From Polytrichum commune (lineage: Eukaryota; Streptophyta; Polytrichopsida; Polytrichales; Polytrichaceae), in contig OX485804.1 in assembly GCA_950295325.1 (NCBI GenBank), forward strand, positions 43,710,001-43,774,000: DNA of 64,000 nt, in the 5' to 3' direction. Under the pieces are notes generated by a model that saw only the letters and a program-made list of their open reading frames with translations, was not told the origin of the DNA and ran no database searches. Numbering within the stretch: position 1 is the stretch's first letter; each line of letters opens with the position of its first letter. This document shows positions 52,420 to 54,455 of this stretch, piece after piece. Both the position numbers and the translations under genes were made by a program.

Positions 52420-52536
52420 TGATTGTGAGCTTGTTTTCTTTCTTATATATATCGGACATTGTAAGTGGGTGTGTGAGAGTCCGAAGTTGCTCCCACTTCT
52501 TGTGTGAAATGAAGCACAAATAGCAACATATGACTA

Positions 52537-52755
52537 CATTGATTATCCCAATTAGTGCATGTTAACTATTCGGAGTTGCGCAAATGCAACAACATCTTTA
52601 CTCAAGCGTTAGTTGTTACTAACGAGTGTTCAGTAGGTTGTTTGGGCATTATAGAATGTAAATGACTTTGCTTGGTAAAACGTTACATTCTTATTAAATA
52701 GTTATAGCACTATGTAACTCCAAATAGTAACATGCACTAATTGGGATTCATAGTG
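52537..52755. mobile_element. TA-target MITE (219 bp)
   Basis: Left 'cattgattatcccaattagtgcatgttaactattcggag', right inverse 'ccaaatagtaacatgcactaattgggattcatagtg', flanked by TA (52535-52536 and 52756-52757). Closely related to 51743-51943, 600 bp upstream. Confidence 0.85.
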
Positions 52756-52789
52756 TAGCAATTTGAAATCCTGTTTGTAGTAGCTATTT

Positions 52790-53050: not shown

Positions 53051-53056
53051 CTTATA

Positions 53057-54453
53057 CAATGACTTCCAAAAGTAATGCAGCACCCTTCATAAACCTACAA
53101 AATTGACATTTTCTCATAAACGGGAAAACCTTACATCGCATGGTGCCAACATAATTCAAGTAAAGTATGTAGCTAGCTTCACATCAATTTCCATGGTGAT
53201 TGGACTCATAAGCCAACAATAAATGGTAAAAATATGAATTTGGGGTGTTGCATTACTTTTGGCACTTTTGACATTATTATGTTCTGGGATATATGAACCT
53301 CGTTGGATGACCTTGAAAATGTTGCAAAACATATGAAAAAATGTAGTTTATTTGTTGATCATTTTGTATCAATGCTATGCTACTTGGCTAGTATTTGGGA
53401 TATCCTCCTTTCGCTTTCAACAATGCGTGCACTCTGTTGGGCATTGATTTTAGTGGCGTATGTACAATTCCCACCTCTATGTTGTTCCATTCATCATGTA
53501 GCTTCTTCCAAAGGTCATCCTTGGTAGTGGGGAGATTTTTGTGGAGTTGGAGGCACTGGTCCACTTTGTTATAGGGTTCATGTCAGGGGATTGTGGACTC
53601 CATGGCAATACGATGATTCTGTGATCATTGAACCATTTGACTATTGACGTACTAGTATGCTTTGGGTCATTATCTTGTTGGTACACCCATTCCTCTATTT
53701 CTTTATGAACTTCACAACTGACATGCTTAGGCTTTCATGTAAGATGTTATGTTAATACTCATTTTTCATTGCTTCTTCATTTTTTGTCAGCTCCCCAACG
53801 CCCTCCCAACTCATGCAACCCCAAACTATGACGTTCCCCATGCCTCACCCAACATCACTCTCGACCATGGGACCCCACAATGTAGAATTTATATTCATAT
53901 ATATACCACTTTCCTCCACTTACTGTAGTCAAGGACTACAAACTGTAGTCCTTGGCGTTCTAGTGCTCTTCTTCTTGTGTTGGGGGAAGTTGTGATATTT
54001 GAAATCTCTTGAAGAACCCTTTGACATTTTACTGCACCAATCATGCCAAGTAACAATCATCCCTCTCACTAAAAATGTGTGGATTCCTCGACTTTCCCTT
54101 ATCTTCCAACTTCCCCATAGCTCTGTAACGTTTGATGATGCGACTAACTGTTGATGGTGTTATTCCTAGTTTGTTGGCTATTGAACCAAGGACCTCGTGA
54201 ATGCAAAGCAAAAGTGTTAAGTAGTGAGTTATGACATACTATAACATGGATTGCTCCGTAATTCAACAAATTTGAAAGAGTTCTAGAAGTAATGCAACAC
54301 CTCAAATTTTACGCTTTAACCACCTACTGCCGGCCTATGAGTCCAATGACCATGGAAATTGACACAAGGCTAGCTACATATCATGTTTAGATTGTGTTGG
54401 CATCACGTGACATAAGCTTTTCCCGTTTTCGGCATTACTTTTGGAAGTCATTG
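53057..54453 (-). mobile_element. complete Tc1-like DNA transposon (1,397 bp), inactivated
   Basis: Ends CAATGACTTCCAAAAGTAAT and, inverted, the same sequence at the right. Each is flanked by TA (53055-53056 and 54454-54455). The terminal inverted repeats are long, about 205 bp, sharing blocks such as 'tgtagctagc', 'tcaatttccatgg', 'attggactcata' and 'ggtgttgcattact'. Each TIR also carries CCAAAAGTAATGC at its outer end and its inverse at its inner end (53066-53078 with 53250-53262, and 54283-54295 with 54432-54444). Size, TA target and the encoded protein relic identify a Tc1/mariner-superfamily element of the Tc1 branch, rare in plants, where the usual members are mariner-like. Confidence 0.92.
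53398..54240 (-). pseudogene. Tc1-like transposase relic
   Basis: Minus-strand frames, broken by stops and shifts, show in order: the N-terminal HTH piece ITPSTVSRIIKRYRAMG (about 54162-54112); a catalytic-core start reading KVVYIYEYKFYIVGSHGRE (about 53925-53869), where families normally have FSDE, so the first Asp is replaced by Tyr; a stretch like VWGCMSWEGVGEL (about 53815) out of frame; QQDNDPKHTS (about 53680-53650) with the second catalytic Asp; SPQSPDMNPITKW (about 53590), where the usual NPIE glutamate is Thr; and the C-terminus LKAKGGYPKY followed by stop (53398-53400), typical of Tc1 proteins. It spans about 280 codons against about 340 for a full protein, so internal sequence has been lost. 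Loss of two catalytic residues makes it inactive. Confidence 0.9.
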
Positions 54454-54455
54454 TA

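Follow-up and report, generated by a model that had tools for sequence, protein, structure and literature searches.

A probable fossil copy of an old Tc1-type DNA transposon family in the genome of the moss Polytrichum commune

We analyzed 64,000 nucleotides of the Polytrichum commune genome (assembly GCA_950295325.1, contig OX485804.1, positions 43,710,001 to 43,774,000, forward strand; hereafter the window, from whose first letter the element's positions are counted) and found an element that is very probably a fossil, non-autonomous copy of an old family of Tc1-type cut-and-paste DNA transposons in a plant. This reading is based on the ends of the element, its TA target site, the spacing of its catalytic motifs, the copy number of its family, and the decay of those copies, each of which we observed directly. 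The features of the window copy are as follows.

53055–53056: left TA target-site duplication, read in the sequence.
53057–54453: the element, window copy, 1,397 bp, with inverted ends CAATG...CATTG beside TA.
53057–53270, plus strand: left terminal inverted repeat region, approximately 210 bp, defined by inverted stretches and by a 220-nt match (81%) to the right end in sister copy L007.
53066–53085, plus strand: left outer end site, core CCAAAAGTAATGCAACACCC with 1 mismatch, located by inverted-repeat and core-site searches.
53243–53262, minus strand: left inner end site, in the opposite orientation to the left outer site, 95% complementary, 0 mismatches to the core.
53388–54185 (high-coordinate end approximate), minus strand, several frames: transposase relic, frameshifted, with internal deletions.
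53570–53571, minus strand: junction of a 13-nt deletion through which the catalytic Glu codon is lost, from alignment to sister copies.
53672–53674, minus strand: second catalytic Asp codon (within QQDNDPKHTS), retained, from translation and alignment.
53897–53899, minus strand: first catalytic Asp position, which reads Tyr (TAT), from translation and alignment.
54180–54181, minus strand: junction of a deletion of approximately 87 nt in the N-terminal part, from alignment.
54276–54308, plus strand: right inner end site, in the opposite orientation to the right outer site, 3 mismatches to the core.
54276–54453, minus strand: right terminal inverted repeat, approximately 36 nt shorter than in L007, the loss lying near 54428–54432.
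54432–54453, minus strand: right outer end site, 22 nt, the same as the left end.
54454–54455: right TA target-site duplication, read in the sequence.

The outermost 22 nt of the window copy are identical in inverted orientation, or 26 nt when the flanking TATA is counted. Inward of these, the terminal inverted repeats are long, continuing as a 114-nt stretch of 76% identity and a 33-nt inner stretch of 85%. TA stands to the left of the element in all seven sister copies displayed; on the right, TA is found in L007 and TG in L009. The termini read CAATG in the window copy and CAGTG, CATTG, or further variants in other copies, and the TA duplication and CAGT-type ends expected of Tc1 (DD34E) elements are both present. 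A preliminary description of this DNA had called the transposon complete, with both ends and TA duplications. The ends at 53057 and 54453 and their TA dinucleotides are borne out, whereas the claim of completeness fails on internal losses: aligned with six sister copies, the window copy lacks approximately 13, 50, 71, 22, and 87 alignment columns.

We estimate the transposase at approximately 340 aa when whole. The HTH, QQDNDPKHTS, SPDMNPI, and LKAKGGYPKY-stop motifs first reported for the relic can all be read on the minus strand where they had been placed, the last of them closing the relic with a stop codon at 53388–53390. By alignment, part of the N terminus lies inside the 87-nt gap. Against Pfam, the window piece scored 27.8 bits with HTH_28, a general HTH model (cut-off 25), and 16.2 bits with DDE_3, below the cut-off of 28.6. 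With its catalytic Glu codon lost and Tyr encoded where the first Asp should stand, the window copy is unable to make a working transposase and can do nothing now.

Judged by its sequence, the window family is Tc1-type, with DD34E rather than DD39D spacing. Mariner-like elements are widespread in plant genomes (PMC4054914), and on that ground the window element could be taken for a plant mariner (DD39D, PlantMar), a reading against which its motif spacing and domain matches speak. In all 11 pieces, the third catalytic position lies 34 residues past the second Asp; its context is SPDMNPIEHLW. At that position, the 28 readable copies among 30 aligned carry Glu (13), Lys (14), or a stop (1), so that the residue is Glu or Lys, and never Asp, in 27 of 28. 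Much of the Lys can be accounted for because the Glu codon is preceded by C in the common reading, which makes it part of a CG site, and C>T at such sites averages 34%. Asp occupies the second catalytic position in 25 of the 30. Sister copies also matched domain models, one exceeding the cut-off for each: L027 for HTH_Tnp_Tc3_2 (36.2 bits, cut-off 31.5), a match that likewise argues against PlantMar, and L006 for DDE_3 (30.6 bits, cut-off 28.6), with L008 (23.0 bits) and L014 (23.1 bits) below the DDE_3 cut-off. No mariner Pfam model was among the matches listed at E ≤1 for five family pieces (for the first piece, the best 25 of 29), and the excerpts of PMC7325037 drawn on here report no PlantMar element from Bryophyta. 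We rejected the plant mariner reading, which has next to no chance of being correct, on the motif and domain evidence, the DD39D triad being absent; the original placement in the Tc1 branch, rather than among plant mariners, holds on the spacing of 34 together with Glu. PlantMar and the window family belong to the same superfamily and share a TA target, and they differ in spacing and third residue. Over 136 columns, a piece of L014 from the catalytic region shares 37% identity with the Sleeping Beauty transposase SB100X; its identity to the genome's other Tc1 proteins does not exceed 39%, and to an IS630-like protein (L001) it is 14%. A 12-row tree in which SB100X is the one outside Tc1 protein sets the window family on a long branch of unsettled position.

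We searched the host genome (G000; 407.8 Mb, of which seven contigs make up 406.1 Mb) with the family DNA and scored 40 of 89 first-look candidates. All 40, the window included, sit at separate places across the seven large contigs, C1–C7, and L063, found through the end motif, brings the family to at least 41 copies. The end motif itself (≤3 mismatches) occurs at 51 genomic sites and at none for a reversed control, far above chance, and 10 pairs among the 51 represent two-ended elements. Two-ended copies free of large inserts (n = 5, not counting the window copy) measure 1.43–1.77 kb. Among the 51 end sites we found no short MITE derivatives: the only facing pairs closer than 1.3 kb, at 211 and 219 bp, each consist of the outer and inner site of one element.

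The junctions between element and host were visible in paralogues of the flanks. A left-flank relative (L059) matches to 2 nt from the left edge of the element and then stops, and a right-flank relative (L064) matches from the fifth base past the right edge. A search for an empty site with the two flanks joined returned one-sided paralogues and none across both. Within the left flank, positions 52530–52760 constitute a very common host repeat (3,773 first-look candidates, 40 scored) with inverted sub-parts.

The element's best-known relatives occur in animals and fungi (PMC4054914), as would suit fungal or animal DNA assembled into the plant genome by contamination. We rejected this explanation, which is very improbable, on copy number and host-repeat flanks. 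The 40 candidates occupy 40 places on all seven large contigs, the copies stand approximately 14% from their majority, and the flanks are repeats of the host. The same flanks and contig distribution uphold the original view that the element lies in plant DNA.

The window family is old and decayed. Among 30 aligned copies, pairwise identity has a median of 76.5% (range, 48%–84%), and copies differ from the column majority by a median of 13.9%. At the rate of 1% per million years used in PMC4054914, a divergence of approximately 14% gives a crude age of roughly 14 million years. C>T changes amount to 34% at CG and 13% elsewhere, the pattern that methylation decay would give. None of the window-family copies read has an intact transposase frame. 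In a stretch of 272 codons from the majority reading, divergence is 15.7% at first, 14.7% at second, and 13.7% at third codon positions (p = 0.006); because third positions diverge least, this comparison across copies gives no sign of purifying selection on the protein after insertion. The same pattern, in which third positions are not the most changed, counts against a domesticated or still useful sequence, as do the frameshifts, the deletions, and the lost Glu codon of the window copy. We found nothing in support of domestication and rejected it as extremely unlikely on the broken frames and the codon-position pattern.

The first catalytic residue bears on how the family arose. Of 21 readable copies, 3 have Asp there, and the others have Tyr (10), Asn (5), Cys (2), or Ser (1). 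Because G>T averages only about 3% in the family, the 10 Tyr codons cannot have arisen independently by decay of a single intact source. In 17 of 1,655 columns, a second letter of transversion type is common. When copies were sorted by their first-Asp codon, 5 columns differed at p < 0.01, the codon's own column included; permutation gave an expectation of 1.6 columns, and 8 of 200 permutations reached 5, a weak subfamily signal tied to this codon. Taken together, the Tyr excess, the transversion-type columns, and the weak subfamily signal make a single source unlikely. There were probably several, some of them already without the first Asp and moved in trans by the transposase of another element.

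By analogy with the known Tc1/Sleeping Beauty pathway, we propose that a transposase of approximately 340 aa would, at the active stage of the family, have bound two sites at each end. The ends would then have been paired and cut at the CARTG termini, and the element joined to TA, which would thereby have been duplicated. Some source elements with Tyr in place of the first Asp would probably have been mobilized in this way by the transposase of another element, and the resulting copies would have decayed through methylation-type change.

The arrangement of the end sites sets the window family apart from Sleeping Beauty, a Tc1 element of fish. The two resemble each other in protein (the 37% identity to SB100X over 136 columns) and in the possession of long ends with two sites each, approximately 220 bp in Sleeping Beauty, where the two sites of an end are direct repeats of each other (PMC7827188). 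In the window family, the direct orientation typical of the Sleeping Beauty IR/DR structure is absent, and of 13 copies examined, nine have inverted sites at each end. These nine carry four 20-nt core sites (≤5 mismatches) in the order outer-forward, inner-reverse, inner-forward, outer-reverse, and the outer and inner sites of an end are mostly 174–184 bp apart; base-shuffled elements yielded 0.005–0.035 core hits each by chance. The remaining copies depart from this order, L021 and L063 lacking the left inner site, L028 retaining the right pair only, and L016 missing the left outer site and bearing an extra weak one (5 mismatches). A distant young family (L049–L052) shows the same inverted pairing at four of four loci, three of them having it at both ends and L052 at one. 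The arrangement is not general, because the ends of L034 carry direct repeats 178–189 bp apart. This Tc1-type element (L034:110–2879) has long nested inverted-repeat ends (306 and 283 nt, 95%–96%) composed of those direct units. L033 showed neither a direct nor an inverted inner pair among the matches listed, the orientation in L042 and its kin cannot be told because their inner site is nearly palindromic, and L037 and L048 had no end pair in the stretch read.

An inner site that faces the outer one, in contrast to the Sleeping Beauty arrangement, is possibly new; listings from literature searches showed no description of it, which is weak evidence of absence. If both sites bind transposase, the facing sites of the window family and of L049–L052 might imply a different geometry of end pairing, an idea we regard as rather unlikely. 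We infer binding at both sites solely from their duplication.

The genome holds other Tc1-type families as well. Domain searches returned at least 150 matches to HTH_Tnp_Tc3_2 (150 scored of 337 first-look candidates) and at least 149 to DDE_3 (from 150 scored of 457). Beside L033/L034, these families comprise L041–L047 with L053 (copies 94%–97% alike), L039, a minus-strand copy, with L049–L052 (96%–98%), and L048, L054, and L055 (91%–92%). They differ from the window family, to which their catalytic parts are at most 39% identical; two are young, and as a set they look younger than the window family. The spacing of 34 with Glu was read in L033, L034, L038, L039, L042, L047, L049, L050, L051, and L053, and HTH_Tnp_Tc3_2 and DDE_3 matches occur together in L033, L034, L042, and L049. 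Open transposase frames span 340 aa in L049 and 404–405 aa in L042 and L044; the frames listed for L035, L040, L045, L052, and L054 included no long protein. A separate, IS630-like DDE_3 family (L001:994–2052 and L002) has a 352-aa open frame and no HTH_Tnp_Tc3_2 match.

Further observations concern the assembly at large. It contains 58 chlorophyll a/b-binding matches, 14 of which are genes of equal score in a dense cluster of approximately 95 kb (G000:C5:1751760–1846160). One LHCII protein of the genome scored highest with a two-stretch LHCI-2 chain, 9vfj (512 bits), then with 8htu (461) and 7xqp (459), and lower with 8c29 (438) and 5zji (431). Among these structures, 8HTU is named PpPSI-L and 5ZJI ZmPSI-LHCI-LHCII (PMC10005731), and 7XQP comes from the moss Physcomitrium patens and 5ZJI from maize (PMC13066549); the ranking suggests, short of proof, a moss host. 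DDE_3 and HTH_Tnp_Tc3_2 matches on a small contig, C59, repeat those at C1:37.83 Mb with the same scores, which suggests that C59 is a duplicate contig.

The preliminary description had regarded a Tc1-type element in a plant as unexpected. That view is outdated: Liu and Yang described Tc1-like DD34E elements with TA duplications in moss in 2014, and Tc1 fragments in nine angiosperms (PMC4054914). The find is real and, because moss Tc1 has been in print since 2014, not surprising; it is a new family of an already known kind of plant element. Its closest described counterparts are PpTc1 and PpTc2 of Physcomitrium patens, which resemble it in their Tc1-type transposase (338 aa, against our estimate of approximately 340), TA duplication, CAGT-type ends, and moss host (PMC4054914). 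Those elements measure 1,584 and 1,709 bp, with terminal inverted repeats given as 33 bp, a distance of approximately 2% from their consensus, and intact open reading frames (PMC4054914), whereas the window family has elements of 1.43–1.77 kb, inverted ends of approximately 210 bp, and a divergence of approximately 14%, a contrast drawn from the published description of PpTc1 and PpTc2.

In published trees, the Tc1 elements of moss fall next to those of fungi: horizontal transfers of Tc1-mariner elements were proposed in 2016 with a moss transposase inside the basidiomycete clade (PMC4905642), and PpTc1 and PpTc2 were placed closer to fungal than to plant elements in 2020, with transfer involving moss and fungi proposed (PMC7466625). 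Horizontal transfer, with fungi as one example of a donor, may likewise have brought in the window family ahead of its old spread, a possibility that is reasonable but that we put somewhat below even. Vertical descent with loss elsewhere fits equally well, and searches covering viral and prokaryote records, rather than plant or fungal genomes, found no relatives: none in viral contigs for one family piece and for two other Tc1 proteins of the genome, and none in prokaryote genomes for one other Tc1 protein. Any arrival was not recent, because the copies are old.

Few Tc1 elements of plants have been published, and the fossil reading adds one old family to them, which is relevant to the number of times Tc1 entered land plants. 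The frequent loss of the first catalytic Asp suggests that crippled sources spread in trans. If transposase binds them, the inverted end sites would offer a variant helpful in working out the pairing of Tc1 ends.
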